From: a virus
DNA length: 49,717 bases
Reading direction: 5' to 3' (one strand)
Virus record (IMG/VR): IMGVR_UViG_3300042301_003072
Coordinates: 1 to 49,717 of that record
The stretch's first letter is position 1, and each line of letters opens with the position of its first letter. This document shows positions 3,341 to 17,760 of the stretch, piece by piece. A program made the translations under genes and the position numbers. Under the pieces are notes generated by a model. It made no database searches. It saw nothing but the letters and a program-made list of their open reading frames with translations, and had not been told where the DNA came from.

Positions 3341-3420
3341 AGTCTTTCATAGATACCGAGCAAGGTCAAACTGGTAACTGCGTAATCTTCTAATTGTTTT
3401 ATTTTGTTTTTATTAATTTT
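3341..3420 (-). promoter_or_regulatory. Expression cassette, copy 1
   Basis: Serves the gene at 3062. -35 TTTGAC at 3370-3365, 18-nt spacer, -10 AAGACT at 3346-3341. A stem-loop at 3334-3318 (GGGTAG/CTACCC, 5-nt loop) begins 6 nt after the -10. Confidence 0.85.
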
Positions 3421-3482
3421 TTCAACCGAGCAACCTAACCCTAACCTTTCGGCTAGGGCTAGGGCGGTGGTGTAGGTAAGAC

Positions 3483-3794
3483 CTAACTATTTTCTAAGGC
3501 GATTTCGTTGAGAGTGTCTATGTTTTTCTTATAGACTTCAATTTGCTCGGTCAGCATTTCAGCTGGTAGCCACCTAAGAAGTGTTGCGGCTAGGTCGTAG
3601 TAGAACTCGGGGGTGCCACCTACAAACTCGCCTTGGGGTCCGTATCGGTAGTCCGTGTTTAGGTTCACTTCACCTAGTTTTTCTTGCTTGTCGCCTAAAC
3701 AAGTAATAAAGAACTTGTTTCTCATCTCTACAAACTCGGCTTCTAATAGTCGTCTTGGACTAATAGGGCTACTTTTTTCTTGTGAATTGCTCAC
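3483..3794 (-). CDS. Hypothetical protein, 103 residues
   Basis: Soluble, acidic, helical protein with no recognised domain. It has no cassette immediately upstream. The 70-bp spacer before it contains only a hairpin, so it is probably expressed by read-through from the gene at 3874, driven by cassette copy 2. Confidence 0.6.
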   Translation of the reverse strand: MSNSQEKSSPISPRRLLEAEFVEMRNKFFITCLGDKQEKLGEVNLNTDYRYGPQGEFVGGTPEFYYDLAATLLRWLPAEMLTEQIEVYKKNIDTLNEIALENS

Positions 3795-3864
3795 TTGGTT
3801 CTCCTTGTTGTCGGTGTTGCGTTGGGGGTTGCCTAACCCTACTTATTGCTAAGTAGGGCTAGGC
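3795..3864 (-). repeat. 70-bp spacer repeat, copy A
   Basis: Nearly identical to 4362-4431 (67 of 70 positions by my alignment). Two of the three differences fall in opposite arms of the hairpin CCCTAC/GTAGGG and restore pairing, which favours a function as RNA. Confidence 0.75.
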
Positions 3865-3873
3865 GTTTCGGTG

Positions 3874-4053
3874 CTAGAAACTTATTTCAGTTTCTCCGTT
3901 ATTTGTGTTGTAAGGGTATGTTGCTGTTTCGCAGGTAGGGCAATCGGCAGTTGTCTTTTTGGTTGGCTGTTCGCTTTGTAGTTCGTGGAATTCTCCGTGA
4001 TACTTACAGGCATACCAAGTCTGCCACATAGGGTTAGTTTCTGGGTGTAGCAT
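3874..4053 (-). CDS. Small zinc-ribbon-like protein
   Basis: 59 residues. CKYH near residues 18-21 and CPTC near residues 39-42 form two potential metal-binding pairs. GGAG stands 8 nt before the ATG. It is the first gene after cassette copy 2. No family is recognised; a structural zinc site is likely. Confidence 0.65.
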   Translation of the reverse strand: MLHPETNPMWQTWYACKYHGEFHELQSEQPTKKTTADCPTCETATYPYNTNNGETEISF

Positions 4054-4090
4054 TTTATCATCTCCTAGTAGTTATGTTGCTTACACAACT

Positions 4091-4169
4091 ATTCTTTCAT
4101 AGATACCGAGCAAGAGCAAACTGAATGCTGGTAATCTTCTAATTGTTTATTTTTGTTTTTATTAATTTT
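4091..4169 (-). promoter_or_regulatory. Expression cassette, copy 2
   Basis: Serves 3874 and probably 3483. -35 TTTGCT at 4120-4115, 18-nt spacer, -10 AAGAAT at 4096-4091. The nearest inverted repeat (4091-4069) overlaps the -10, so the +1 hairpin is less clear here than in other copies. Confidence 0.8.
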
Positions 4170-4228
4170 TTGAAAACCTGAGCAACCTAACCCTGCCATC
4201 TCTGGCAGGGCTAGGCTTTGCTCGGTGA

Positions 4229-4360
4229 TTACTTCGAGTTCTTGTATCTGTGTTCGGGCTTGCGTTGCCATTTGCTATCGCTTGATTGGGTTAGTAGATA
4301 CTGAAACCATCTACCTACAAAAAAAGCGGCGATTGCGACTAGTAAAGTTAGTCCGTTCAT
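4229..4360 (-). CDS. Small single-span membrane protein
   Basis: 43 residues. A hydrophobic N-terminal segment (about 3-25) is followed by a basic tail. AAGGAG lies 8 nt before the ATG. The gene sits between the second copy of the 70-bp spacer and cassette copy 2. Like 3483 it lacks its own promoter. Function unknown. Confidence 0.6.
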   Translation of the reverse strand: MNGLTLLVAIAAFFVGRWFQYLLTQSSDSKWQRKPEHRYKNSK

Positions 4361-4361
4361 T

Positions 4362-4431
4362 TTGGTTCTCCTTGTTATCGGTGTTGCGTTGGGGGTTGCC
4401 TAACCCTACCTATTGCTAGGTAGGGCTAGGC
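4362..4431 (-). repeat. 70-bp spacer repeat, copy B
   Basis: Second copy of the spacer at 3795-3864, with compensatory changes in its hairpin stem. It precedes 4229 exactly as copy A precedes 3483. Confidence 0.75.
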
Positions 4432-4439
4432 TCTTGGTG

Positions 4440-4640
4440 CTATCGCATAACGGGTCTAGGGTTAGGCAACTTGTTGAACTTTACTGCTCTATCTCCACAA
4501 GGGACACAGACAAAACATTCAGGGTCGTTAGGGGAACTCCATAAGACGCTAACGGCTGAACTCTCACAACCAATTTTGTCGCATAGGGCAACTTGGTTGC
4601 TTGGGAAACGCATATCTAACTCGGTAATGTATAAGGACAT
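4440..4640 (-). CDS. Small Cys-rich protein, paralogue of the gene at 5675
   Basis: 66 residues from the ATG at 4640. An in-frame GTG three codons earlier is less likely, because AGGTG lies 6 nt before the ATG. Cys pairs suggest a zinc site. The segment SVLWSS..DPE.F.C....G..AVK..KLP is shared with the protein at 5675, and both genes have the same 5' leader hairpin. The pair arose by duplication. Function unknown. Confidence 0.65.
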   Translation of the reverse strand: MSLYITELDMRFPSNQVALCDKIGCESSAVSVLWSSPNDPECFVCVPCGDRAVKFNKLPNPRPVMR

Positions 4641-4678
4641 AGTAATCACCTACTTTCTACGGGCATACCCGTAGTCTA

Positions 4679-4759
4679 AGTTTGCCATAGTTGGCAAGCG
4701 TAGTCAAACAGGAACGCGAGTAATCTTCTAGTTGTTTTCTTTTGTTTTTATTAATTTTT
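4679..4759 (-). promoter_or_regulatory. Expression cassette, copy 3
   Basis: Serves 4440. -35 TTTGAC at 4708-4703, 18-nt spacer, -10 CAAACT at 4684-4679. Leader hairpin 4674-4657 (CTACGGG with its complement), the same as in copy 5. Confidence 0.85.
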
Positions 4760-4802
4760 CAGCTGCGAACAACCCTGCCTTTCGGCAGGGCTGTCGCTTA
4801 GA

Positions 4803-4913
4803 TTACTGAACGGTACAGACACAGTTCGAGCCAAGTCCGTCACAACAAATACAGACTAACTGGTCAAGTTCGGCAATCTCACCTATGCCATCACAGACTG
4901 TGCAGTTGCTCAT
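4803..4913 (-). CDS. Very small Cys-rich protein
   Basis: 36 residues with six cysteines: CTVC near the start, CICC in the middle and CVC near the end. It resembles a zinc finger or knuckle. The ATG overlaps the stop of the gene at 4910 (ATGA), so it is translationally coupled to it. Function unknown. Confidence 0.6.
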   Translation of the reverse strand: MSNCTVCDGIGEIAELDQLVCICCDGLGSNCVCTVQ

Positions 4914-5359
4914 AGGCGTTGCCAATCTTCAATTTCCTCTTCGGTGGCTTTCCTAAAGGTGAAGATGCCTGTGCCTGTAGGCTCATCGTGGCTCCATCGC
5001 TGTGCAGTCATAGTCTTGTCGCCATCGTAGGTGATTTTGAGTGTCCAATCACCATCGAAGGTAAGCATCTTCAAGATACTCTTGAAGTCACCCTTGCTAA
5101 GTGCGTAGCCATCAACATTTCGCCAAGATACTCTGTTTGCACTTACAACAACATAATCGTGGTCGGCAATGTCATTAGCCTCTTGCCAAGGATGAATGAT
5201 GTCATACTCGGTGTTGCTCTGGTCATCTTGCCAGCATCCGTCACAGGACTCAGATGGCACTGGATTACCCTTATCGTCTAGGACTTCACTGTCTGTTTCA
5301 CTGTCATAGACAGTGCAACGGCAGTTGCTAGACAACTCATAAACAATGTCATTTGACAT
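4910..5359 (-). CDS. Hypothetical acidic protein, 149 residues
   Basis: Acidic soluble protein. Cysteines near the N-terminus (NCRC and SCDGCW) could bind zinc, followed by a beta-rich, Trp-containing second half. It is coupled to the 36-residue gene downstream. No family is recognised. Confidence 0.6.
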   Translation of the reverse strand: MSNDIVYELSSNCRCTVYDSETDSEVLDDKGNPVPSESCDGCWQDDQSNTEYDIIHPWQEANDIADHDYVVVSANRVSWRNVDGYALSKGDFKSILKMLTFDGDWTLKITYDGDKTMTAQRWSHDEPTGTGIFTFRKATEEEIEDWQRL

Positions 5360-5416
5360 AATTTACTCCTAGTTTGTAGTTAGGTGGTGCTTTAGACAGA
5401 TACGCTGTCTGCTTCA

Positions 5417-5497
5417 ATTCTTTCACACTTCACCGCATAGTGCAAACGGGGAGCCAGGTAATCTTCTAGTTGTTTTATTTTGTTTTTATTAATTTTG
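5417..5497 (-). promoter_or_regulatory. Expression cassette, copy 4
   Basis: Serves 4910 and 4803. -35 TTTGCA at 5446-5441, 18-nt spacer, -10 AAGAAT at 5422-5417. Hairpin 5410-5394 (AGACAG/CTGTCT) has the same loop as copy 1 but a different, still fully paired stem. Confidence 0.85.
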
Positions 5498-5498
5498 T

Positions 5499-5629
5499 CT
5501 TCCACCGAGCGGATGCTGCAGCGTCTGAAGCGGCGAGGCTGAAAAGTGAGCGAAGCGAACGTTCAGCTATCGAGCCGCGAAGATCGCAGCAGCTGAGCGA
5601 GGTGTTTATTTTGTTTTTATTAATTTTGA
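5499..5629. repeat. GC-rich insert plus partial cassette block
   Basis: Between the intact A-rich block of copy 4 and a second, truncated A-rich block (about 5602-5629) lie some 100 bp of GC-rich sequence with inverted repeats such as GCTGAA/TTCAGC. It contains GTGAGCGAAGCGAAC (5546-5560), also present at 2837-2851. No promoter elements accompany the truncated block. Confidence 0.6.
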
Positions 5630-5674
5630 AAGCACCCTGAACCCTGCCTTTCGGCAGGGCTAGGGACTTCTGTT

Positions 5675-5920
5675 TTAGTCGTTGTCGCCATACATCTCGC
5701 CAACACGGTTGCTACCTTGCGCTTGCGGAAGTTTTGTCCACCTAGTCCAAGTCTCAGGCAACTCTCCTAACTTCACTGCTGTTTCACCGTGTTCTAGACA
5801 AGTGAACATCTCAGGGTCAGTTAGCGAACTCCATAAGACGCTGTCGGCTGACTTGCCGCAAGACAAGACATCGCAACTGTGTCTGGACACCGCTTTTAGT
5901 TCTGTTGTAAATAACTCCAT
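5675..5920 (-). CDS. Small Cys-containing protein, paralogue of the gene at 4440
   Basis: 81 residues from the ATG at 5920, chosen because GAGGTG stands 6 nt before it. It shares SVLWSSLTDPE and the AVKLGELPE region with the 4440 protein and adds a polar C-terminal extension. Cysteines around residues 18-22 and 43 could form a metal site. Function unknown. Confidence 0.65.
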   Translation of the reverse strand: MELFTTELKAVSRHSCDVLSCGKSADSVLWSSLTDPEMFTCLEHGETAVKLGELPETWTRWTKLPQAQGSNRVGEMYGDND

Positions 5921-5958
5921 AGTAATCACCTCGTTTCTACGGGCGTACCCGTAGTCCT

Positions 5959-6039
5959 AGTCTTTCACAATTCACCGCATAGAGCAAACGGTGGCGTGAG
6001 TAATCTTCTAATTGTTTAATTTTGTTTTTATTAATTTTT
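5959..6039 (-). promoter_or_regulatory. Expression cassette, copy 5
   Basis: Serves 5675. -35 TTTGCT at 5988-5983, 18-nt spacer, -10 AAGACT at 5964-5959. Leader hairpin 5954-5937 (CTACGGG stem), matching copy 3. Confidence 0.85.
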
Positions 6040-6085
6040 TCAAAAAGCCAAGAACCCTGCCTTTCGGCAGGGCTCTCGGTGTTTG

Positions 6086-6316
6086 CTAGTTCCACTCTCC
6101 TAGAACTCTCATCAACTCGTTTGGAGTGGTCTTGAGTTCTCGGCACAAGGTCGCCATCATACCCGATGGGATTTGGCGCTCTTGGTGGAAATAACGGCTA
6201 AGGCTGGACTTCTGTAAACCTGTCGCAATAGCGAACTGGTTTAGGGACTTGTAGCCTAGTTTGGTGTATCTTGCGATAAACCAAGACCAAGCATCCATAG
6301 TTTGAGTTTTACTCAC
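6086..6316 (-). CDS. XRE-type helix-turn-helix regulator
   Basis: 76 residues from a GTG at 6316, with CTAGGAG 6 nt before it. The region YKSLNQFAIATGLQKSSLSR, then YFHQERQIPSG and later TTPNEL, is a typical Cro/CI-like HTH. It would bind DNA as a dimer. Lying inside the cassette array and driven by one of the cassettes, it is a plausible regulator of the other copies. That is inference; no operator can be assigned. Confidence 0.75.
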   Translation of the reverse strand: MSKTQTMDAWSWFIARYTKLGYKSLNQFAIATGLQKSSLSRYFHQERQIPSGMMATLCRELKTTPNELMRVLGEWN

Positions 6317-6440
6317 TTTGGCTCCTAGTTGGTAGGCGTAGAGTGAGCCATAATCAACGGCTAGCACTTGTTTTTCCTGCTCACTCTACTAAGGCTTATA
6401 ACTCTACCTAAGACCTTCTTAGGACTTCACCTCTGGTTCA

Positions 6441-6520
6441 ATTGTTTCATAGATACGGCACTTAGTCAAACTGGGAAACGGGTAATCTTCTAGTTGTTTA
6501 ATTTTGTTTTTATTAATTTT
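6441..6520 (-). promoter_or_regulatory. Expression cassette, copy 6
   Basis: Serves the HTH gene at 6086. -35 TTTGAC at 6470-6465, 18-nt spacer, -10 AACAAT at 6446-6441. Hairpin 6423-6407 (CCTAAGA/TCTTAGG) begins 17 nt after the -10. Identical to copy 8 over 83 nt. Confidence 0.85.
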
Positions 6521-6579
6521 TTGAAACCCCCAAACGCCAGAAAGCCCCATCATTTCTGATGAGGCTTTCGGCACTTGGA

Positions 6580-6834
6580 CTATAGGGCTTTGATAGCCTC
6601 GCCAAGAGTTGCGAACTCTTGGAACTCACTCAACTCGGTGAGGGTCGTTTTGTCAGCGTATCGGATTGTGTAGCGTGAGGCACTTCGGTTGTAGTTGTCC
6701 TCGCTGGTGATAAACTTCCAACCCTGTCCGTGTTCGGTCAGCGTGTCCCAGTAGATTTCAGAGTTCCAGAACTCAAGGGTAGCAGTGCTAAACCATTGTG
6801 GATGGCTTGATGTGATGATTTCTTTAGGTGTCAT
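6580..6834 (-). CDS. Hypothetical protein, 84 residues
   Basis: Aromatic-rich soluble protein (several Trp and Tyr) with no recognised domain. A poor purine-rich ribosome-binding site (AAAGAAAGAT) precedes the ATG. It has its own cassette. Confidence 0.6.
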   Translation of the reverse strand: MTPKEIITSSHPQWFSTATLEFWNSEIYWDTLTEHGQGWKFITSEDNYNRSASRYTIRYADKTTLTELSEFQEFATLGEAIKAL

Positions 6835-6947
6835 TTTTTATCTTTCTTTGATTGGTTGTTTGCTGACCACAGGAGTTTGTGGGCAACATTGAATAGAACT
6901 CCACTCACATTACGGAGCGTTTTTGCGTATAGTTTTCTCATACTCTC

Positions 6948-7027
6948 AGACTACACTCACCGTATCTGATTGTCAAACTAGGTGTCGAGTAATCTTCTAG
7001 TTGTTTCATTTTGTTTTTATTAATTTT
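6948..7027 (-). promoter_or_regulatory. Expression cassette, copy 7
   Basis: Serves 6580. -35 TTTGAC at 6977-6972, 18-nt spacer, -10 TAGTCT at 6953-6948. The leader has only a distant inverted repeat (GGAGTT/AACTCC, about 6870-6903), so it departs from the +1 hairpin pattern. Confidence 0.8.
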
Positions 7028-7071
7028 GAAAGCACCCTGAACCCTGCCTTTCGGCAGGGCTAGGGCGGGAT

Positions 7072-7248
7072 TTAGTCGGTGATTTTCCAGATGGCTAGTC
7101 TAGCCTTTGGATTATCTTTTTCCATTTTCTTGAGTATAGCCTTTGCCATTAGCAAAGTTCTAAACAAGGCTGGTTTAGGGTTTTCATCTGAGCCTGTGAC
7201 ACAGATTTGGACTTTCCCTTTTTCACTCAGGGCGACTATTGAATACAT
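7072..7248 (-). CDS. Small basic hypothetical protein
   Basis: 58 residues, lysine-rich, with a beta start (MYSIVALSEKGKVQI) and a helical second half. GAGGAGG lies within the end of the gene upstream and the ATG is 2 nt after that stop, so the pair is translationally coupled. Function unknown. Confidence 0.6.
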   Translation of the reverse strand: MYSIVALSEKGKVQICVTGSDENPKPALFRTLLMAKAILKKMEKDNPKARLAIWKITD

Positions 7249-7250
7249 TG

Positions 7251-7433
7251 CTATACCTCCTCATCAAACTCGGTGTGCCAAAGTTCGTCTGGGATAGACC
7301 AAACAGTTTCCAACTCCGTAAGTCTTGTCCGTAGTAGCGACAGGACTTTCTCTTTTGGCTTTGGTAGCCAAGTGTCATCAGCAAGGACATCTGCGATAAC
7401 TGTCTTGTATGACTTGATTACTTCTTCTAGCAT
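7251..7433 (-). CDS. Hypothetical protein, 60 residues
   Basis: Small acidic helical protein with no recognised domain. First gene of a two-gene unit behind cassette copy 8. Confidence 0.6.
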   Translation of the reverse strand: MLEEVIKSYKTVIADVLADDTWLPKPKEKVLSLLRTRLTELETVWSIPDELWHTEFDEEV

Positions 7434-7512
7434 TTTTCTCCTAGTTGATTGATGGCACGAACCACCCTGTACAGGCAGGGTACAGGGCAGTTCGCTATTC
7501 AGTTATGTCTTA

Positions 7513-7592
7513 ATTGTTTCATAGATACGGCACTTAGTCAAACTGGGAAACGGGTAATCTTCTAGTTGTTTAATTTTGTTTTTATTAATTTT
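7513..7592 (-). promoter_or_regulatory. Expression cassette, copy 8
   Basis: Serves 7251 and 7072. -35 TTTGAC at 7542-7537, 18-nt spacer, -10 AACAAT at 7518-7513. A long leader stem (7494-7458, CGAAC plus CCCTGTA arms) begins 18 nt after the -10. Identical to copy 6 across 83 nt, including the normally variable spacers. Confidence 0.85.
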
Positions 7593-7646
7593 TTAAACCA
7601 GCACCAAGAACCTAACCCTTTCGGGCTAGGCTCTCGGCACTATGGT

Positions 7647-7994
7647 TTAGAACTGCTTAGCCATTTCAGCCATAATTTCTATGGCTCTGGCGTAGTTGTC
7701 GTCAAGGGACAAAGTTTCTCCCCTTGCGTTTGTTCCACCTGTGAACACTGCGTCACCAACGATTGGGCTAGATGCTCCCAACATTTCGTAGAAACGGGTT
7801 GCCACCTTGTTTAGTGGTAGGGATTTGAGTAACCCTTCATCATCAACCCAGAAATCTAGGTGTGGCTGAATAGTTACGTGGGTAAACCAGCCACCTACGG
7901 CTGACTTGATAGCGTTTGAGATTTCCGTTTCTGGAACTTCAATTCGCTCGGTGGTGTTGTCCGTACGGACAACTAAAGCGTGAATAGTGTTCAC
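7647..7994 (-). CDS. DUF3846-like protein
   Basis: 115 residues. The order of segments (AIKSAVGGWFTHV, then a VDDEGLLKSLPLNKVAT segment, then SSPIVGDAVFTGG) matches the DUF3846 family, common in phages and plasmids and of unknown function. Soluble, with no catalytic motif. Single gene behind cassette copy 9. Confidence 0.7.
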   Translation of the reverse strand: MNTIHALVVRTDNTTERIEVPETEISNAIKSAVGGWFTHVTIQPHLDFWVDDEGLLKSLPLNKVATRFYEMLGASSPIVGDAVFTGGTNARGETLSLDDNYARAIEIMAEMAKQF

Positions 7995-8054
7995 GGCAGT
8001 TTCCTAACTGTTAGGGTTTGGGTGGTGCTTTGGGTAGATACGCTACCCGAGACA

Positions 8055-8134
8055 AGTCTTTCATACTTTCTCAAATAGGTCAAATGAGGAGCTCGGTAAT
8101 CTTCTAGTTGTTTTCTTTTGTTTTTATTAATTTT
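8055..8134 (-). promoter_or_regulatory. Expression cassette, copy 9
   Basis: Serves 7647. -35 TTTGAC at 8084-8079, 18-nt spacer, -10 AAGACT at 8060-8055. Hairpin 8048-8032 (GGGTAG/CTACCC), the same sequence as copy 1. Confidence 0.85.
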
Positions 8135-8185
8135 TTGAAAGCCACCAACCCTGCTCACCTTTTCAGGTGGCAGGGCTGGCAGTGC

Positions 8186-8668
8186 TTACCAAGCAGCCAT
8201 AGCAGGAACTACAACGCTAGTTCCAACAATTAGGGTAGAGAGAATAACCCAAGGTCCTAGTGGAATTGAGTATATTTGTTGTTTCATAATAACTCGGTAG
8301 GTAATCTCAATAAGAGCAAACCCTAGTGCTATTGGAATAATTAGTAAAGAAGCAACAGGGGAGTAAAGGCTAACTGCCAACATAACTCCAAGTAGCAACT
8401 TTATATCGCCCATTCCAATATAACCATAGTAGTTTAGGAACATTCCAAGAATGAACACTGCCAAAGGTATTCCAACTGCCAGCAGTAGATTTAGCCAACT
8501 TTGGTTAGCAATATTTACAACTAGAACGGATAGGAATGATGTAGCAACAAACGGCAGAACTATTTTGTTTGGTAAGCGGTGCTGTTCGTAGTCAATGACT
8601 ACAAGGGGTAGCGTGATAACCGCAAGATACGCAAGCGGTAAGAGAGAAATAATATCTATAATAGACAT
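8186..8668 (-). CDS. Prepilin peptidase, A24 family
   Basis: 160 residues and strongly hydrophobic, with about five membrane spans. It has both catalytic aspartates of the aspartyl prepilin peptidases: Asp26 in VIDYEQHRLPNK and Asp88 in GMGDIKLL. The length fits the short form that lacks the N-methyltransferase domain (TadV/CpaA/FlaK-like). In bacteria it cleaves type IV or Flp prepilins at the inner membrane. A complete copy in a phage, as a single gene behind a standard cassette, is unusual. It might mature or interfere with host pili. Confidence 0.85.
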   Translation of the reverse strand: MSIIDIISLLPLAYLAVITLPLVVIDYEQHRLPNKIVLPFVATSFLSVLVVNIANQSWLNLLLAVGIPLAVFILGMFLNYYGYIGMGDIKLLLGVMLAVSLYSPVASLLIIPIALGFALIEITYRVIMKQQIYSIPLGPWVILSTLIVGTSVVVPAMAAW

Positions 8669-8715
8669 TATGTTCCTTTCTGGTTGGTTTGGTGTAGAGA
8701 GTTCTCTACGCTAGT

Positions 8716-8795
8716 AGTCTTTCACATCTCGCCGCATAAGTCAAACGGGCGACCGGGTAATCTTCTAGTTGTTTTCTTTTGTTTTTATTAATTTT
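8716..8795 (-). promoter_or_regulatory. Expression cassette, copy 10
   Basis: Serves the prepilin peptidase at 8186. -35 TTTGAC at 8745-8740, 18-nt spacer, -10 AAGACT at 8721-8716. Hairpin 8709-8694 (7-bp GTAGAGA stem, 2-nt loop as drawn) begins 6 nt after the -10. Confidence 0.85.
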
Positions 8796-8841
8796 TTAAA
8801 CCCCAGCCAGACCCTACCTTTCGGTAGGGCTGACTTTTTGG

Positions 8842-9150
8842 TTAGTTGTGGAGCAACTCAGCCAAGTTTTTTGGTGTCCAATGTAAATCTCTCTCAATTT
8901 TGAGACCCATTGGACCAACAACGCCTTCCAGCTCTGCTAGCGAGAAGTAGCCAAGTTCTTTCTCAAATCCGTCAACAAGACCGAAGAAAGTGTCTGTTCC
9001 GTCAAATTCTGCGGCATACCAAGTCCAGTTGGACCAAGGGCAGAAGAACTTGACTGTTGCCATAACCTCAGATAAGTTGCTATCTTCGGTTTCTCGCCAT
9101 TTAGCGAGTTTTGCTTTTTCAGATTCAGGTAGTAGTTCCACCTTTATCAT
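8842..9150 (-). CDS. DUF2958 protein
   Basis: 102 residues. The core CPWSNWTWYAAEFDG, then DTFFGLVDGFEKELGYFSL, then IERDLHW matches DUF2958, a small family found on plasmids, integrative elements and phages. Biochemical role unknown. Single gene behind cassette copy 11. Confidence 0.8.
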   Translation of the reverse strand: MIKVELLPESEKAKLAKWRETEDSNLSEVMATVKFFCPWSNWTWYAAEFDGTDTFFGLVDGFEKELGYFSLAELEGVVGPMGLKIERDLHWTPKNLAELLHN

Positions 9151-9192
9151 CTCCTAGTTGTAGGGTGTTGCCTGCGGACCATCCGCATAACA

Positions 9193-9272
9193 ATTCTTTC
9201 ACACTTAGCCGCATAACGCAAACTGGGTCGGCGGTGATCTTCTAATTGTTTAATTTTGTTTTTATTAATTTT
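9193..9272 (-). promoter_or_regulatory. Expression cassette, copy 11
   Basis: Serves 8842. -35 TTTGCG at 9222-9217, 18-nt spacer, -10 AAGAAT at 9198-9193. The GATTAC box reads GATCAC here. Hairpin 9187-9173 (TGCGGA/TCCGCA). Confidence 0.8.
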
Positions 9273-9322
9273 TAAATGCGAGAAACCTAGCCTGCCCTTT
9301 CGGGCAGACTAGGCTTTGGGAA

Positions 9323-9659: not shown

Positions 9660-9739
9660 AGTATTTCACACTTACGGCATTTAGTCAAACTGGCTCAGCG
9701 GTAATCTTCTAGTTGTTTTCTTTTGTTTTTATTAATTTT
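9660..9739 (-). promoter_or_regulatory. Expression cassette, copy 12
   Basis: Serves 9323. -35 TTTGAC at 9689-9684, 18-nt spacer, -10 AATACT at 9665-9660. Hairpin 9653-9638 (GTAGAG/CTCTAC core). Confidence 0.85.
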
Positions 9740-10175: not shown

Positions 10176-10257
10176 ATTGTTTCACACTCTACCGACTAAG
10201 GCAAGTTGGCTCGGCGGTAATCTTCTAGTTGTTTTTTTTTTGTTTTTATTAATTTTT
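10176..10257 (-). promoter_or_regulatory. Expression cassette, copy 13
   Basis: Serves 9785. -35 CTTGCC at 10205-10200, the weakest match; 18-nt spacer, -10 AACAAT at 10181-10176. The leader is long, with a strong stem at 10046-10015 (GTTAGAGGGG paired to its complement) far from the promoter. It may hold additional control. Confidence 0.75.
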
Positions 10258-10740: not shown

Positions 10741-10820
10741 AGTTTGCCATAGTTTGCCGCATAGGTCAAATGAGGTCGGGAGTAATCTTCTAGTTGTTTT
10801 CTTTTGTTTTTATTAATTTT
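10741..10820 (-). promoter_or_regulatory. Expression cassette, copy 14
   Basis: Serves 10517 and 10302. -35 TTTGAC at 10770-10765, 18-nt spacer, -10 CAAACT at 10746-10741. Long hairpin 10734-10679 with an 11-bp GAGAGGGTAGG stem. Confidence 0.85.
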
Positions 10821-11409: not shown

Positions 11410-11489
11410 ATTGTTTCACATTTGCTTTTAGAACGCAAACGTGGCGGCTGGTAATCTTCTTGTTGTTTTATTTTGTTTTTATTAATTTT
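11410..11489 (-). promoter_or_regulatory. Expression cassette, copy 15
   Basis: Serves 10868. -35 TTTGCG at 11439-11434, 18-nt spacer, -10 AACAAT at 11415-11410. Hairpin 11403-11389 (GTGGA/TCCAC, loop TACTT in + sense). Confidence 0.85.
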
Positions 11490-11538: not shown

Positions 11539-11670
11539 TTATTGGTCGTGGTCGCAGAAGACTCTGCCACATTCTGGACACATTTGATTGTCGCAGTCGT
11601 GGCACATCTCCCACTGAGCAAGAGCCTCTTTTGAAGTTTCCTCATCACACTCTGGACAATAGACACTCAT
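11539..11670 (-). CDS. Very small zinc-finger-like protein
   Basis: 43 residues with paired cysteines in CPEC, CHDC, CPEC and a final CDHD. It is probably a two-site zinc ribbon. The ATG follows directly after the stop of 11671, whose last codons (GAGGAA) serve as ribosome-binding site. Partner or target unknown. Confidence 0.65.
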   Translation of the reverse strand: MSVYCPECDEETSKEALAQWEMCHDCDNQMCPECGRVFCDHDQ

Positions 11671-11982: not shown

Positions 11983-12018
11983 TTTTACCTCGTTTTTCTG
12001 CGGTCTATCCGCATAACC

Positions 12019-12099
12019 AGTTTTTCACATTTTGCTGCGTAAGTCAAACTTGTCGGCTGGTAATCTTCTTGTTGTTTTATTTTGTTTTTATTAATTTTT
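12019..12099 (-). promoter_or_regulatory. Expression cassette, copy 16
   Basis: Serves 11671 and 11539. -35 TTTGAC at 12048-12043, 18-nt spacer, -10 AAAACT at 12024-12019. Hairpin 12013-11999 (TGCGG/CCGCA). Confidence 0.85.
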
Positions 12100-12139
12100 T
12101 AGAAATGCCGAGAACTTGCCCTTTCGGGCAAGTCTGGGT

Positions 12140-12451
12140 TTAGTTGCTACTCCAACTTTTTGCTATGGATAGTAGCGATTTTGCTAGTTCGGGGTCTGCT
12201 GAAACTAACCTGACTAGTTCCATAGTTGCTTTTGGTCTGTTCGGTGCTCTGCGTTCTTTGTATGGTCTTACAGGCTGGTCTAGTGGTGTGCCGTGCTTTT
12301 TTCTGCTGACCAATAAAGATTTTTTCTGTTGGCAAATTTTACAAATGCTAAACGCTTTGCCTTTGTAAGATACTTTGTAAATGTCTGCCACGCTTTTTAT
12401 GTCGTGTCCATTTACACAAATACCTCTCTCTAATAATGTTTTTTTAGTCAT
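12140..12451 (-). CDS. Zinc-binding hypothetical protein
   Basis: 103 residues. CVNGH near residue 12 and CKICQQKK near residue 37 make a CxxGH...CxxC metal site of the kind seen in small HNH-like or recombination-endonuclease-like phage proteins. The catalytic histidines of an HNH nuclease are not seen. It lacks its own cassette and probably shares the transcript of 12506. Confidence 0.6.
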   Translation of the reverse strand: MTKKTLLERGICVNGHDIKSVADIYKVSYKGKAFSICKICQQKKSLLVSRKKHGTPLDQPVRPYKERRAPNRPKATMELVRLVSADPELAKSLLSIAKSWSSN

Positions 12452-12505
12452 TTTTCTCCTCGGTTAGTTGTGTAAGCCTTTTAGACACTTGCTTAGGTGT
12501 TGGAA

Positions 12506-12895
12506 CTAGATGTCTCCGTAGTGGTCTCCGTCTGCGGCACAATCAGCGTGGAAACCCTGAACAATGTCATCTTCGTTGTCCTCGTCTCCGTCAAAGTTCT
12601 CTTTACAGATTGAGCAAGGTCGGTCAAGATACATTTCCCATTGAAGTTGGTATTCCTCTTGCCTATCTCGGATAGCCTCGTAATCAGGTGCCTCATTGTT
12701 GTCGTTGCGATAGTAGTCCTTGTCGCAAGAACAACAAGGTCTGTCCTCACACTGACAAACACTAGACACAGGCTCAACCTCTGCTGTGAAGTTTTCTAGA
12801 ACTCTCGCCCATCTAGATTTCATTTCTGGACTAGCCTTTATTCCAGCGTAAGATAGTGCCCATTTTATTTGACTTATGTCGAATTCAGATAGCAT
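12506..12895 (-). CDS. Cys-rich zinc-binding hypothetical protein
   Basis: 129 residues. The N-terminal helix region is followed by CQCEDRPCCSCD and then CSIC...HADC near the end, giving at least two probable metal sites. Acidic overall. No family is recognised. First gene of a unit with 12140, behind cassette copy 17. Confidence 0.65.
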   Translation of the reverse strand: MLSEFDISQIKWALSYAGIKASPEMKSRWARVLENFTAEVEPVSSVCQCEDRPCCSCDKDYYRNDNNEAPDYEAIRDRQEEYQLQWEMYLDRPCSICKENFDGDEDNEDDIVQGFHADCAADGDHYGDI

Positions 12896-12936
12896 TTTTA
12901 CTCCTAGTTGTAAAAGTGGATACTTTCCACATCACC

Positions 12937-13017
12937 AGTCTTTCACAAGTTTATCGGTTAGTCAAATGGGCGGAGCTGTAATCTTCTTGTTGTTTTATTT
13001 TGTTTTTATTAATTTTT
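12937..13017 (-). promoter_or_regulatory. Expression cassette, copy 17
   Basis: Serves 12506 and 12140. -35 TTTGAC at 12966-12961, 18-nt spacer, -10 AAGACT at 12942-12937. Hairpin 12930-12916, identical to that of copies 15 and 18. Confidence 0.85.
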
Positions 13018-13061
13018 TTAAAAAGCCAAATGCCCCCAACCTTTCGGTCAGGGGCTTTGGT

Positions 13062-13178
13062 TTACTCGTCGTCGTGAGTGAAGTATTTGTTAGAACACTC
13101 AATACACATACCAAGTTCTTCTGCGTGTATGTCTGCGTCTACTGGGTCGCCACAATCATTACAAGGTAGCGTTGCCAT
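13062..13178 (-). CDS. Very small zinc-ribbon-like protein
   Basis: 38 residues with CNDCGD near the N-terminus and CIECSN near residue 27, a classic CxxC...CxxC ribbon, ending in an acidic tail. Its ATG overlaps the TAA of 13178 by one base. Function unknown. Confidence 0.65.
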   Translation of the reverse strand: MATLPCNDCGDPVDADIHAEELGMCIECSNKYFTHDDE

Positions 13179-13351
13179 TAGTCCTCTACCTCAACTTCGT
13201 AAGGTCTTGCGTGGCTTTCCCAATCGTGAGTGTCGTCATTTATCCACTCTTGAGCCTCGGCTTTTGTATCAAAAGTCGGTGCCCACATTACAGGCACATA
13301 GCCGTAGCCAGACCCGTAATCTATTTCTACTTTCCAAACTGAACTGCTCAT
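13178..13351 (-). CDS. Hypothetical protein, 57 residues
   Basis: Start chosen at 13351 because AGGA stands 6 nt before that ATG. Beta-rich N-terminus (SSVWKVEIDYGSGYGYV), then AEAQEWI, reminiscent of small proteins with a double-stranded-RNA-binding-like or SPOR-like fold. No family assignment is safe. Confidence 0.6.
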   Translation of the reverse strand: MSSSVWKVEIDYGSGYGYVPVMWAPTFDTKAEAQEWINDDTHDWESHARPYEVEVED

Positions 13352-13390
13352 AACTTTTCCTCGGTTTCTGTGGATACTTTCCACACTCTA

Positions 13391-13470
13391 ATTCTTTCAC
13401 AACTTACCCGTTTAGTCAAACTTGTTGGCTGGTAATCTTCTTGTTGTTTTATTTTGTTTTTATTAATTTT
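13391..13470 (-). promoter_or_regulatory. Expression cassette, copy 18
   Basis: Serves 13178 and 13062. -35 TTTGAC at 13420-13415, 18-nt spacer, -10 AAGAAT at 13396-13391. Hairpin 13384-13370. Confidence 0.85.
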
Positions 13471-13524
13471 TTGAAAAAACCCAAACCCTCCACCATTTCT
13501 GGTAGAGGGCTCGGTTGGTAGCGG

Positions 13525-13926
13525 TTAGACTACTGCTGGCTCTTTTGGTTCAGCAAGGCTTTCCTCAAACTGCTTTTGTAGGCGTTCAGCTTCTCTGCCA
13601 AGAACTTTCTTGGACCAAGTGCCAAGTGCCTCGTTAGAAACATTGGTTCCGTAGCCGACCATACTTTTTACAAACTCAAAGTTGTAGGCAGATTTGTTTG
13701 ACCAAGTGCCGTCCTCTAACTGCTTGTTTTCGTAGTGTAGAGGTCCGTTGAGGCTTTCCCACATTTTGATACGAGCATAGACATCACCTAAGTTTTTCTT
13801 AGATACTGACCCGATACCAATAGCCATAAGTGCGAAAGCGAAGTAAGCAATAGCGTTAGCGTCGGCCTCGTCCTCTAATCTAGCGTCAATGTTTGCCACG
13901 CTTTGTGCGTTCCAATTTAGCGACAT
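13525..13926 (-). CDS. Hypothetical protein, 133 residues
   Basis: Alpha-helical soluble protein of a type I associate with actinophages (IAYFAFALMAIGIGSV, then VYARIKMWESLNGP). It ends KEPAVV, which weakly resembles the acidic-hydrophobic tails discussed for 20200 and 38204. Single gene behind cassette copy 19. Confidence 0.6.
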   Translation of the reverse strand: MSLNWNAQSVANIDARLEDEADANAIAYFAFALMAIGIGSVSKKNLGDVYARIKMWESLNGPLHYENKQLEDGTWSNKSAYNFEFVKSMVGYGTNVSNEALGTWSKKVLGREAERLQKQFEESLAEPKEPAVV

Positions 13927-13968
13927 TTTGTCTCCTCGGTTTTTGTAAGCCTTGTTGCTTACATCTTT

Positions 13969-14049
13969 ATTCTTTCAGTTTTACTGCGAATAGTCAAATG
14001 GCCGTGCTGGTAATCTTTTCGTTGTTTAATTTTGTTTTTATTAATTTTT
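13969..14049 (-). promoter_or_regulatory. Expression cassette, copy 19
   Basis: Serves 13525. -35 TTTGAC at 13998-13993, 18-nt spacer, -10 AAGAAT at 13974-13969. Hairpin 13962-13945 (GTAAGC/GCTTAC). The GATTAC flank differs slightly (CGAAAAGATTAC). Confidence 0.85.
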
Positions 14050-14098
14050 TAGAAATGCCGAAACCCCTCGCTTTTCAGCAAGGGGCTCGGTTGGAAGT

Positions 14099-14422
14099 TT
14101 ACTCGTCTCGGGGCGAGCAGGTCAGACAAACTTCGGTGTCCTCAAACTCATCTCGGACATCTTCTGGGATAAATGCCTCGCAATGATTACAAAGGTAAAG
14201 TTCATCGTCAGTGAAGTAAGACGCGGTGAAGTAGTCTTTTGCTCCGTTTGGATAATCCTCTTTACACTCTCGGCACAGCCAGAAATACATAAGTTCTTTC
14301 ATCTTGGCTGGGTCGTGAATGCCCTTTGGAATGTTCGGTGTTCTTGCCAGAATACCAATTGGGTCGCCATCGTAGTAGCCACCACAGCTGTCGCAACTAA
14401 TGTCGTAATGTGCGTCTATCAT
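14099..14422 (-). CDS. Zinc-ribbon hypothetical protein
   Basis: 107 residues with CDSCGG, CREC, CNHC and CLTC motifs, so probably two treble-clef or ribbon sites. Start overlaps the stop of 14419 (ATGA). Function unknown. Confidence 0.65.
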   Translation of the reverse strand: MIDAHYDISCDSCGGYYDGDPIGILARTPNIPKGIHDPAKMKELMYFWLCRECKEDYPNGAKDYFTASYFTDDELYLCNHCEAFIPEDVRDEFEDTEVCLTCSPRDE

Positions 14423-14556
14423 AGGGTATCGATATCCTCAACTTGCCATTCGTCTAGAACACCGTTTAGCACTTTATCTAACTCACGCACAATGTCTTTG
14501 AGACCTTCTGCTTGAATAGTGATAGTGCCTGAAATACTCACTTCAAATGTTTCCAT
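14419..14556 (-). CDS. Small hypothetical protein, 45 residues
   Basis: Begins METFEVSISGTITIQAEG. The VSISGT segment recurs in the larger protein at 14743 (VSVSISGTMTVKAP), so the two seem to share a beta-rich motif. First gene of a pair with 14099, behind cassette copy 20. Function unknown. Confidence 0.6.
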   Translation of the reverse strand: METFEVSISGTITIQAEGLKDIVRELDKVLNGVLDEWQVEDIDTL

Positions 14557-14597
14557 TTATTCCTCCTCGGATTTGAATAGGGAGTTTCCCTATAATC

Positions 14598-14678
14598 AGT
14601 TTGCCAGATTTTTACGCTTAGGTCAAACTGTGTAAACGGTAATCTTCTTGTTGTTTTATTTTGTTTTTATTAATTTTT
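14598..14678 (-). promoter_or_regulatory. Expression cassette, copy 20
   Basis: Serves 14419 and 14099. -35 TTTGAC at 14627-14622, 18-nt spacer, -10 CAAACT at 14603-14598. Hairpin 14593-14577 (7-bp ATAGGGA stem, 3-nt loop). Confidence 0.85.
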
Positions 14679-14742
14679 TTGAAACGCCAGAAACCCTACC
14701 CAGAGAGAGAGGGCTCTGGATAGGGTGGTCTGGTGTTAGAGG

Positions 14743-15174
14743 TTAGTCCTCAACGGTGGTGTCATTGACTTCTAGGTCATAACTTTCAATGCTGAAACTT
14801 TCTGACCAATTGGTTTCAATGCTGACTTCAAAGGAAGAATATGAAAGGTCGTCCCAATCGTAGCCTCGTGGTGCTTTGACGGTCATAGTGCCAGAGATAG
14901 AGACGCTTACTTCTTTCTCTACTTCGGTGTCAATGCCCATAATCTCGGCAACTCGTTCTGCCTCAATGCTGTCCCACTCGTCATCAAGGTATTCCTCTAA
15001 CTGTTCCACCTTGCTTTCTAGTTCGGTCAGCGTGGCAGTGGTGCGAGTTCGCCAGAAGTTAGCAGTTTCTAACTGCTTGGTTAGTGTTTCGTTTTCAGCA
15101 GTTAGTTCCTCAATGGACTTTGGCTGTGGTTCGGTTGGTTCGGTTGGTTCTGGTGTTTCGTTGATTTCAGACAT
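14743..15174 (-). CDS. Coiled-coil protein with C-terminal beta motif
   Basis: 143 residues. Acidic Pro/Glu/Thr-rich N-terminus, a heptad-like coiled coil at about 20-68, then the VSVSISGTMTV segment shared with 14419 and an acidic C-terminus. It probably forms oligomers. Similar small proteins occur in other actinophages; role unknown. Confidence 0.65.
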   Translation of the reverse strand: MSEINETPEPTEPTEPQPKSIEELTAENETLTKQLETANFWRTRTTATLTELESKVEQLEEYLDDEWDSIEAERVAEIMGIDTEVEKEVSVSISGTMTVKAPRGYDWDDLSYSSFEVSIETNWSESFSIESYDLEVNDTTVED

Positions 15175-15251
15175 TTTGTCTCCTCGGATATTGGTTGAGT
15201 GTGGGGGTAGATAGGAACAACTAGGAAGACCTGCCTACCCCTCACATCTCA

Positions 15252-15332
15252 ATTCTTACATTTATTTAGAGGTAAGTCAAATCGGGGTGGGCGGTAATCT
15301 TCTAATTGTTTTATTTTGTTTTTATTAATTTT
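15252..15332 (-). promoter_or_regulatory. Expression cassette, copy 21
   Basis: Serves 14743. -35 TTTGAC at 15281-15276, 18-nt spacer, -10 AAGAAT at 15257-15252. Long leader hairpin ending at 15245, with GTGGGGGTAG at 15201-15210 pairing to CTACCCCTCAC at 15235-15245. Confidence 0.85.
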
Positions 15333-15389
15333 TTGAAACGCAGGTTTGTTGAGCAGTTTATACACTTGCTCAGGTGTCCGAGGTGGCTT

Positions 15390-15611
15390 TTAGTAAAGTG
15401 GGGTTTCGCAACCGAAACAGAAGTGCTCGGTTTCTTCTGTTAGTTGGTGGAATACATCTTCGCTGACATAAATACTTAGGGTGTCATTTGAATAGTTTTT
15501 TCCGTATTCAAAGTCGGTTATGCCTAAATCTTTTAGCCAAGCGAATACGCAATCTACGCACCCGACCCAAGCGTCGTCATTAGTTCCGACTTCCCACAGG
15601 TCTTTACTCAT
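15390..15611 (-). CDS. Hypothetical protein with CxxC pairs
   Basis: 73 residues from the ATG at 15611, which overlaps the last codons of 15604. CVDC near residue 18 and CFGC near the C-terminus give a possible split zinc site. Last gene of a three-gene overlapping operon. Function unknown. Confidence 0.6.
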   Translation of the reverse strand: MSKDLWEVGTNDDAWVGCVDCVFAWLKDLGITDFEYGKNYSNDTLSIYVSEDVFHQLTEETEHFCFGCETPLY

Positions 15612-15885
15612 CTTCTTCGCTCCACTCTTTTTCCACTTCGTCAATTGCCTCTTGTAGTTTTTCGGCTGCGTCGTGGACAAAGTTGTAGAACTCTAAGATG
15701 TGGTCTAGTTCTTCTTGGATATCGTTAGCAATTCTGCTCCACGCCTCCGTTAGAACATCTGGGTCATCTGGCATCTTGTCCAGAAACTTAGCAGTATGCT
15801 TTTTGTCAAACCAAGTGATAATAAGAGCATCTTCACTTGGGTAGTAGTCGTAGTTCAGCATACGCAAGATGTCTTCTATTTTCAT
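15604..15885 (-). CDS. Hypothetical acidic helical protein
   Basis: 93 residues with a long acidic helical second half. The ATG overlaps the stop of 15882 (ATGA), with GGAGG upstream inside that gene. Function unknown. Confidence 0.6.
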   Translation of the reverse strand: MKIEDILRMLNYDYYPSEDALIITWFDKKHTAKFLDKMPDDPDVLTEAWSRIANDIQEELDHILEFYNFVHDAAEKLQEAIDEVEKEWSEEDE

Positions 15886-16136
15886 AGCACTACCTCCTTG
15901 CTTAGTGTTGCGTCTCCCATTATTTTTGCCTCTACTTCGGCAATAACATAGTTCATTTGGATTAGCAAAGACTTAGCGTCTGCTAGGGTTAGGTGCTGGG
16001 TTATGCTAGACAGAATATTACAATCTGCTAGGTGTGTGCTGATGTTCATAGAAATCATTGTGTTATCTGCCATATAATCTGACCCAACTCTTTCATAGAC
16101 ACTGATGTTTAGTGATGTTGCTTGTCTTTCTAACAT
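15882..16136 (-). CDS. Hypothetical protein, 84 residues
   Basis: First gene of a three-gene overlapping operon. Beta-rich N-terminus, then a helix. No recognised domain. Confidence 0.6.
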   Translation of the reverse strand: MLERQATSLNISVYERVGSDYMADNTMISMNISTHLADCNILSSITQHLTLADAKSLLIQMNYVIAEVEAKIMGDATLSKEVVL

Positions 16137-16174
16137 TTTTACTCCTCGGTTATTTGTGGTAGTTCCACACTACA

Positions 16175-16254
16175 ATTCTTATACGAACTTTACACGAAGT
16201 CAAATTGAGGAAATCGTAATCTTCTAATTGTTTCTTTTTGTTTTTATTAATTTT
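16175..16254 (-). promoter_or_regulatory. Expression cassette, copy 22
   Basis: Serves the operon 15882-15604-15390. -35 TTTGAC at 16204-16199, 18-nt spacer, -10 AAGAAT at 16180-16175. Hairpin 16168-16156 (GTGG/CCAC). Confidence 0.85.
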
Positions 16255-16299
16255 TTGAAACGGCAGAAAGCAGTAGCCATTTCTGACTACTGCCTTTTG

Positions 16300-16656
16300 T
16301 TATCCGTAGAGAACCTCACCGAAGAAAGCAAGTTGTAGCAATCCGTCTGACACGCAAGCGTCAGGGTCTTCCAAGTCCCACGCTGAACCACAATGTTCGT
16401 AGCCCTCGGTTAGAGCAATGCTGTAAGCCTTAGCCAAGTCTTCAATGGTTATGGTCTTGCTTACTTCATTACAGCCTACTTCGTCTGGGTCTTGGAAAGT
16501 TAGAACGAACTTGCCCTCGCCAATGATGTTCCAATCTGCTCCGTCAGGATATTCCAACCTTGTCCACCAAGGCATATATTCCCAACCTCCTCCGAGAGTT
16601 GCCTCCCAGAGTTCTTGCCTATCAACTGAAACATTGATGTTGATTTTGTCTTCCAT
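16300..16656 (-). CDS. Conserved phage hypothetical, 118 residues
   Basis: Start at 16656, overlapping the TAA of 16656-16961. It begins INVSVDRQELWEATLGGGW, then WNIIGEGKFVLTFQDPDE and later SDGLLQLAFFGEVLYG, a pattern I recognise from many phages of different hosts. The C-terminal FGEV(L/I)YG is characteristic. Function unknown. Confidence 0.7.
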   Translation of the reverse strand: MEDKININVSVDRQELWEATLGGGWEYMPWWTRLEYPDGADWNIIGEGKFVLTFQDPDEVGCNEVSKTITIEDLAKAYSIALTEGYEHCGSAWDLEDPDACVSDGLLQLAFFGEVLYG

Positions 16657-16961
16657 TATTCCTCTTCTTCGCTTTCGCATAGAGCGCCACATTCGTAGCA
16701 GTGGTAAGCCCCAAACAAAGACCAATAGCCAGCGTGTTTTCCTGCGATTGCTAGGCTACCAACTTTGTAGGTTTTTTCATCCTCGTCATACCAGACAAGT
16801 TCTTTGGAGCAGTTGCCACAGATTTCCCAAGAGAAGATTTCGTGGCAACCATTCCAACCTTGATACTTGTCGTCGGTTTGAGCGCAGGTGTCGGAGCAGT
16901 AGTAGTTTCTATCTACTACCTGCCCGTCTTTGTCGTCAATGTCTATTAGATGTGCTGACAT
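16656..16961 (-). CDS. Cys-rich zinc-binding hypothetical protein
   Basis: 101 residues with CSDTC, CGNCSKE and CYECGALC motifs, so multiple zinc sites are likely. Acidic C-terminus ESEEEE, whose codons act as the ribosome-binding site for 16300. Function unknown. Confidence 0.65.
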   Translation of the reverse strand: MSAHLIDIDDKDGQVVDRNYYCSDTCAQTDDKYQGWNGCHEIFSWEICGNCSKELVWYDEDEKTYKVGSLAIAGKHAGYWSLFGAYHCYECGALCESEEEE

Positions 16962-17125
16962 TATTTATCTTTCCAATACTCGTCAATGGCAATCATACTT
17001 TCTAGGTCGCTAATGCGCCCCTCTATCAAAGCCCAGATAGACATTGAGAACTTGTGCTCACAGGTTTCTAGGATTTCATAATCCTTTTGTAGTTGAGCGA
17101 GTTCTGCTTTGTGTTCTTCCAACAT
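16961..17125 (-). CDS. Small helical protein, 54 residues
   Basis: Predicted to be one long amphipathic helix or a helical hairpin. TAATG overlap with 16656. First gene of a three-gene operon behind cassette copy 23. Function unknown. Confidence 0.6.
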   Translation of the reverse strand: MLEEHKAELAQLQKDYEILETCEHKFSMSIWALIEGRISDLESMIAIDEYWKDK

Positions 17126-17165
17126 TTTTACTCCTCGTTATTTTTTGTGGTGTTTCCACATTACC

Positions 17166-17247
17166 AACTTTACACGAACTTTACACGAAGTCAAGTTGAT
17201 TGTCGTGGTAATCTTCTTGTTGTTGTTTTTTGTTTTTATTAATTTTT
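17166..17247 (-). promoter_or_regulatory. Expression cassette, copy 23
   Basis: Serves 16961-16656-16300. -35 CTTGAC at 17195-17190, 18-nt spacer, -10 AAAGTT at 17171-17166. Hairpin 17159-17147 (GTGG/CCAC). The gap between GATTAC and -35 is 12 nt here instead of 11. Confidence 0.8.
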
Positions 17248-17317
17248 ACAGCAACAACAAAGCCCCCAATCCAAACTCTCGGTCTGGTTTATTGGGGGCT
17301 GTGTTGTTTAGAGATAA

Positions 17318-17638
17318 CTATGCTGTGCGAATATAGTCATACTCGGTGGTTCGCAAGGTTTCTGCGTATGCGTCTGGAAACTTCTCTTTTAGCAAGTCTC
17401 GGTCAAACGAAGTGTTGGTGCTGGCGATAAGAGTGTAGGCTTTGATTTTGCCAAAGAACCCTTTTGTCTTACCTGCTGGTAGAGCAGAACGAAGAATTGC
17501 CTCGGCTTGTGCCTTGCGTTCCTTAGCGTCTTTCTCGTCAGCCTTAGCCTGAATAAAGTCAGCGTGGGCTTTCTTTACCTTGGCACTTGTGATGATAACT
17601 GCGTCATCTGGCAGTTCTGATGCGTTGTCGTTAGACAT
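17318..17638 (-). CDS. Hypothetical coiled-coil protein, 106 residues
   Basis: Alanine/lysine-rich helix at about 20-50, then a glycine-containing turn and an FDRDLLKEKFPDAYAE segment near the C-terminus. Similar C-termini occur in small phage proteins, but no function is known. Single gene behind cassette copy 24. Confidence 0.6.
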   Translation of the reverse strand: MSNDNASELPDDAVIITSAKVKKAHADFIQAKADEKDAKERKAQAEAILRSALPAGKTKGFFGKIKAYTLIASTNTSFDRDLLKEKFPDAYAETLRTTEYDYIRTA

Positions 17639-17680
17639 AGTGTTTCTCCTTGTAGGATTGTTGAGTTGCCCTACAAGACA

Positions 17681-17760
17681 AATCTATATCATATAGATAG
17701 ATAAGTCAAGTTCGGAAAGAGGTAATCTTCTAATTGTTTATTTTTGTTTTTATTAATTTT
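17681..17760 (-). promoter_or_regulatory. Expression cassette, copy 24
   Basis: Serves 17318 and is the rightmost copy. -35 CTTGAC at 17710-17705, 18-nt spacer, -10 TAGATT at 17686-17681. This is the best match to the usual sigma-70 -10 and fixes the register of the others. Hairpin 17677-17649 (CTTGTAGG stem). Confidence 0.85.

Follow-up and report, generated by a model that had tools for sequence, protein, structure and literature searches.

A repeated A-rich block at the putative promoters of small-gene units in a 49.7-kb virus genome

The array and its cassettes

The 49.7-kb virus record IMGVR_UViG_3300042301_003072, analysed over its whole length of 49,717 nucleotides (hereafter the window), carries a long array of small genes whose joints are marked by an A-rich core of 17 bp (AATTAATAAAAACAAAA). 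The core occurs in 26 copies between positions 2992 and 17758, all on the minus strand and with zero mismatches, against an expectation of 0.55 matches even when up to three mismatches are allowed. A promoter pattern follows 24 of the 26 cores. We refer to the A-block, a second box mostly reading GATTAC (box2), a -35 hexamer, 18 nt and a -10 box together as a cassette, and to the genes predicted to be driven from it as a unit. Units contain one to three or four small open reading frames (ORFs; 37 called within the 26 inter-block intervals), mostly without known function, and each joint reads, in the order of transcription, terminator hairpin of the previous unit, A-rich block, promoter, 5′ hairpin leader and ribosome-binding site.

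17681..17758, minus: cassette 1, predicted unit 17318-17638
17166..17244, minus: cassette 2, predicted three-gene unit 16300-17125
16175..16252, minus: cassette 3, predicted unit 15390-16136
15252..15330, minus: cassette 4, predicted unit 14743-15174
14598..14675, minus: cassette 5, predicted unit 14099-14556
13969..14046, minus: cassette 6, predicted unit 13525-13926
13391..13468, minus: cassette 7, predicted unit 13062-13351
13344..13390, minus: example leader carrying a 5′ hairpin (TGTGGAAAGTATCCACA) and a ribosome-binding site
12937..13014, minus: cassette 8, predicted unit 12140-12895
12019..12096, minus: cassette 9, predicted unit 11671-11982 with a small ORF behind it
11410..11487, minus: cassette 10, predicted unit 10868-11362
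10741..10818, minus: cassette 11, predicted unit 10302-10648
10176..10254, minus: cassette 12, predicted unit 9785-9985
9660..9737, minus: cassette 13, predicted unit 9323-9583
9193..9270, minus: cassette 14 (GATCAC), predicted unit 8842-9141
8716..8793, minus: cassette 15, single-gene unit 8186-8668 (A24, type IV prepilin, peptidase-like membrane protein, PF01478)
8055..8132, minus: cassette 16, predicted unit 7647-7994
7513..7590, minus: cassette 17, predicted unit 7072-7433
6948..7025, minus: cassette 18, predicted unit 6580-6834
6441..6518, minus: cassette 19, predicted unit 6086-6316 (HTH_26)
6048..6079, minus: example of a terminator hairpin ahead of a block, with a stem of 14, a GAAA loop and a run of T
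5959..6036, minus: cassette 20, predicted unit 5675-5920
5609..5625, minus: promoterless A-block, separated by a GC-rich insert from the block of cassette 21 that follows it
5417..5494, minus: cassette 21, predicted unit 4910-5359
4679..4756, minus: cassette 22, predicted unit 4229-4640
4091..4167, minus: cassette 23, predicted unit 3483-4053
3341..3418, minus: cassette 24, predicted unit 3062-3283
2992..3008, minus: terminal A-block without promoter, after the last terminator hairpin and broken by GC-rich CGCTTCGCTC-type sequence

Pattern matching by script recovered 24 cassettes, all on the minus strand between 3341 and 17758, which is the number given by an earlier reading of the same DNA (the original prediction), but the count of A-rich cores had to be raised from 24 to 26, those at 2992-3008 and 5609-5625 being without promoter. 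Core and GATTAC were separated by 14 nt in 23 cassettes and by 15 nt in one, and GATTAC, predicted for every cassette, was exact in 23 of the 24 and replaced by GATCAC in the cassette at 9270. The gap between GATTAC and the -35, anticipated as 11 nt with a single 12-nt exception, measured 11 nt in 21 cassettes, 12 nt in two (17244 and 15330) and 10 nt in one (4167). Further downstream the geometry was as proposed: in 24/24 cassettes a TTTGAC-like -35 hexamer stood exactly 18 nt ahead of a -10 fitting (A/C/T)A-N3-T. The -10 boxes depart from TATAAT and are weak, and TGn precedes 21 of them. The expected combination of free sequence and fixed length in the spacers was also borne out, since over the first 9 of its 11 nt the spacer showed a mean ungapped identity of 0.37 compared with 0.33 expected from composition. 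Because these sequences are close to composition-random, recent copying of whole cassettes does not explain the constant spacer length. The 11 nt adjoining the -35 are 64% G+C, the A-block lies at about -84 to -68, and the entire A-rich operator extends from about -84 to -48. No match to the promoter pattern was found elsewhere in the window on either strand. A scan for consensus promoters performed no better than shuffles (19 vs 19.3), because a TATAAT-like -10 is built into that scan; the case for the array lies in its recurring geometry and not in any match to a consensus.

The distance from block to -35 was 47–49 nt throughout the window, whereas that from terminator to block ranged from 5 to 60 nt, which ties the block to the promoter and not to the terminator. 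Two classes of hairpin had been missed by the original prediction. Terminator-type hairpins, whose stems reach 20 pairs and frequently carry a GAAA loop, lie 5′ of 24 of the 26 blocks (5–21 nt ahead of almost all blocks), and 5′ leader hairpins of at least 5 pairs, starting just past the -10, were present in 21 of the 24 units, compared with 6.5 expected from dinucleotide shuffles. Leader hairpins occurred likewise in the relatives G003 and G004, and hence in three phages in all.

Block turnover and unit shuffling in close relatives

The close relatives G003 (95 kb) and G004 (33 kb), with AAA ATPases 94–96% identical, carry arrays at the equivalent place in the genome. A search of related phages for the block, as the original prediction had advised, recovered the same cassette architecture upstream of orthologous genes in both, but not the same block sequence, each phage having a block of its own (CAATTAATAAAA-N-CAGAATTA-N-CAATTRAAAA in G003 and AATTAATAAATARACC-NN-ACAATTARAAAGAGA in G004). 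In G004, the block starts 46–48 nt from the -35, nearly the position in the window. The idea that GATTAC is a separate conserved activator site did not survive this comparison: G004 reads AAAGAGA at the same place, so GATTAC is better regarded as one end of a phage-specific composite box. No block array of similar strength was found in G010 and G013.

Comparison between phages revealed a block identity of 0.75–0.80 for orthologous and non-orthologous units alike, against 0.92–1.00 within a phage, whereas leader identity between phages was 0.71–0.83 for orthologs and 0.58–0.59 otherwise. By these identities, the block is a cis-element under concerted evolution across the regulon, and the leaders follow the gene. 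Such concerted evolution is the pattern that a shared trans-acting factor would produce.

The window, G003 and G004 are collinear outside the array, and breakpoints in gene order fell solely within it: 14 between the window and G003 (24 shared genes), 8 between the window and G004 (21) and 5 between G003 and G004 (30), with 5–18 array genes private to one phage of each pair. Genes moved mostly by whole unit, with the exception of a window operon gene (16656-16961) that has its own promoter in G003. G003 also contains a tandem triple of blocks. The last block lacks a promoter in all three arrays and is interrupted in each by GC-rich CGCTTCGCTC-type sequence; these promoterless terminal blocks may be decayed copies. 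Such GC-rich sequence lies in the window at 5495-5608, between two A-blocks, and at about 2800-2990, where it breaks up the terminal block.

Helical phasing in a second lineage and the role of the block

A different block, TGTATTCGTTTTTT, is present in 40 copies in G011 (126 kb) and 26 copies in G015 (54 kb), mostly between the terminator and the promoter of small-gene units. Its 14-bp core is identical in all 66 copies, and the proteins shared by the two phages are mostly about 35–89% identical. Since the block-to-(-35) distance varies in this lineage, dependence on the face of the DNA helix could be tested here. The distances peaked at 29–31, 40–41 and 51, with more at 61 and 71, and were phased at 10.5 bp over the 38 promoters of both phages (Rayleigh R = 0.55, p about 1e-5) as well as within each (G011, R = 0.44, p = 0.006; G015, R = 0.76, p = 2e-5). 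The same phase was obtained when the first peak was left out (distances >34; n = 21, R = 0.41, p = 0.03), and the terminator-to-(-35) distances of the same promoters, used as a control, gave R = 0.01. Orientation is free, with blocks inverted at some orthologous genes, and the distances of the eight usable inverted blocks clustered at 35–38, 47 and 58. Inversion at orthologous genes argues against an RNA-level role of the block in this lineage. Taken together, the phasing, the free terminator distance and the invertible block suggest an activator bound to DNA on the face that RNA polymerase occupies, and the phasing lends independent support to the earlier suggestion that an activator acts from the upstream block.

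We consider it reasonably probable that the window array is a modular small-gene regulon of about 24 self-contained units, in which each promoter carries the site of a common activator. The A-rich operator would be bound by one sequence-specific activator, most likely encoded by the phage, which would share a face of the DNA with RNA polymerase and increase transcription from all units in concert. Each unit would have an active promoter of host type (TTTGAC, 18 nt and a TGn-extended weak -10), its expression would presumably be early, and recombination could add, remove or rearrange units with expression left intact, because each has its own start and stop. A sequence-specific factor that would touch RNA polymerase, and activate and not repress, is favoured by the upstream position of the block, its constant or phased distance to the promoter, the loose terminator distance, the extreme constancy of its sequence and the weak -10 boxes. 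Among the traits of a Class I-type activator site, a sequence-specific element upstream of the -35 was found in 26 perfect copies, and helical-face dependence in G011 and G015 only.

Several observations weigh against this interpretation. The phasing was seen in sister phages with a different block, the distance in the window being constant; its period is not sharp (9.5–11.5 bp all score), and the pattern had already been seen in these data when the test was made. In G003 the block starts 56–62 nt from the -35, a looser spacing that spans more than half a turn, and two blocks in the window, as well as the final block of the window, G003 and G004 arrays, are without promoter. Furthermore, no DNA-binding protein could be linked to the block, as three of four candidates mismatch the pattern of block sharing and WhiB is not assessable. 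The candidates named in the original prediction are weak. The ClgR-like helix-turn-helix (HTH) protein is fast-diverging (70% and 54%), yet G011 and G015, which have a block in common, also differ in its recognition region. The tandem HTH_17 protein is divergent in both groups of phages and does not track block sharing either. The recognition stretch of the HTH_26 protein is unchanged among the window, G003 and G004 although their blocks differ, and a match in G015 was not found. WhiB was not found in G004, and its absence from the G015 fragment prevented a comparison with block sharing.

An unlikely alternative is that the block serves mainly as a linker for recombination: the same short sequence at each joint would allow units to be exchanged, and recombination itself would keep it homogeneous. 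This would account for the reordering of genes mostly as whole units inside arrays whose surroundings are collinear, and for blocks lying exactly at the joints, the promoterless copies and the tandem triple of G003 included. It leaves unexplained, however, the fixed -35 spacing in the window, the phasing in G011 and G015 and the inverted blocks at orthologous genes, and homologous exchange would not favour a perfect 17-bp core over the flanking promoter.

Rather less likely still is a UP-element or curved A-tract touched by the alpha subunits of host RNA polymerase without a separate activator, as in T4 early promoters. The block is A/T-rich, lies upstream of the -35, is phased and seems to work in either orientation by position; T4 early promoters likewise join UP, -35, TGn and -10 in many host-type promoters with an A/T-rich upstream part (PMC2988021). 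The canonical place of a UP-element is -40 to -60 (PMC2988021), whereas the array has no A/T-rich UP there: its A-rich part begins further upstream, at about -84, behind the G+C-rich spacer. Its -10 boxes are weak in comparison, and its block sequence switches between close relatives. Moreover, base-perfect identity in 26 copies in the window and 66 in the sister lineage, the TGTATTCG part included, is a greater specificity than A/T-richness calls for, and curvature alone would need no fixed TGTATTCG.

That the block is a stoperator or insulator, at which a bound repressor blocks transcription running on from the preceding unit or keeps its own unit silent, is very improbable: the sites are many, asymmetric, oriented with transcription in 26/26 cases in the window, adjacent to terminators (which the promoterless terminal blocks also follow) and phage-specific in sequence as in cluster A phages (PMC6550527), but their terminator distance is loose against a tight or phased -35 distance, all lie within 2992-17758 with 24/26 tied to a promoter whereas most stoperators are not promoter-associated, and orientation in G011 and G015 is free.

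A wider proposal built on the activator reading, about which we are more tentative, is that one activator site would serve 24–40 single-gene units across the phage and, on a change of activator, be exchanged simultaneously at nearly every copy. One lineage would then keep phase without fixed distance or orientation and the other a strict distance, and the joints would double as points of unit exchange.

Known systems, relatives and other repeats

Arbiol et al. 2010 and Comeau et al. 2014 are said to have described PeSL cassettes between small variable genes of T4-type phages, the order and content of which vary between relatives while the rest is collinear. Recombination between cassettes is a trait of T4-type PeSLs and gives excised circles. 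PeSLs are composite terminator-promoter repeats according to a passage that cites them in PMC4503421. The array resembles them in its terminator stem-loop adjoining a putative sigma70-type promoter (hairpin at 24 of 26 blocks, promoter at 24) and in its place among small variable genes shuffled as modules between relatives; it differs in its actinophage-type genome, unrelated to T4, in its 5′ leader hairpins, and in an extra upstream block that is phage-specific, uniform per phage and promoter-phased. A further likeness is the host-takeover module of SPO1. Passages of PMC6873191 and PMC10531801 give it 24–26 genes, most of them small, within about 12 kb, and equip it with promoters and strong ribosome-binding sites. 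Those passages describe no identical upstream element per unit. In our analysis, the array appears organised like PeSL cassettes and the SPO1 module and is classed as neither, because its genome is not T4-like and an early host-directed role is putative. What is new here is a block that is uniform, phage-specific and promoter-phased.

The original prediction knew of no phage with so many near-identical copies, a statement contradicted in its general form by T4, with many early and nearly 60 middle promoters (PMC2988021), by cluster A phages, with 20–30 stoperators (PMC6550527), and by T4-type PeSLs. Stoperators are also phage-specific, vary between relatives and are oriented with transcription, but they are repressor sites spread genome-wide and mostly not promoter-associated (PMC6550527). 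Cluster O mycobacteriophages have more than 30 near-identical 17-bp repeats, many of them intergenic, and recombination among these explains some indels; unlike the block, they are palindromic, partly within genes and not promoter-tied (PMC4351075).

The arrays provide a natural series for asking how a site sequence can change across the dozens of sites of one regulon and many genes be rewired at once: the window, G003 and G004 have most genes in common and not the block, whereas G011 and G015 have the block in common and diverged proteins. Identification of the activator would allow the co-evolution of factor and site to be followed directly. The modularity of terminator-promoter cassettes would extend from T4-type phages to large freshwater actinophages, and 24 putative promoters of constant geometry with free spacers offer material for measuring the needs of actinobacterial RNA polymerase.

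The window also encodes a cobalamin-type ribonucleotide reductase, SSB, endolysin, WhiB, a transfer-messenger RNA (tmRNA) and a tail-fibre gene. Its closest annotated record is Actinomycetia phage DSL-LC01 (77% identity for the reductase and 66% for the AAA ATPase), an assembly from a lake metagenome (PMC10611076), and a host in actinobacteria is likely because this is the nearest annotated relative. Relatives of the reductase are found in Mycobacterium and Streptomyces phages; the genome is of actinophage type and not that of a T4-like myovirus. Megablast of window positions 1-25000 and 3300-18000 against the phage collection gave zero matches, and a scan of bacterial genomes for the block pattern gave just two single chance-like matches, in Bacteroidales/Prevotella assemblies. 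The sole Rfam match in the window was the phage-borne tmRNA (42358-42700, minus; tag ANTSAYALAA). Relatives of the genes at 34903-35385, 42724-43119 and 44252-44587 are a pyrimidine-dimer glycosylase, an HNH endonuclease and WhiB, respectively. At 30596-30706, between leftward genes and an 899-aa rightward gene, lie inverted repeats of about 33 nt, imperfect and containing AAGTTGACAT motifs, that are possibly a divergent control region.

Other repeated elements were observed among the phages compared. The element (TA)GCAAAAAGTAAAAA of a third lineage (L022, L026, G006 and G009) follows stop codons or abuts start codons, with no usable promoter phasing, and was not used as support. In L024 and L025, GGGGTAAAAA is repeated behind genes, sometimes serving as ribosome-binding site plus start and sometimes after terminators. 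DSL-LC01 (L223) contains another repeated-promoter region at about 22600-43300, where small genes are preceded by an extended -10 motif, TTCTAAAGATGTTATAAT, and by ACGACGAAAGGACA, in about 17 copies.

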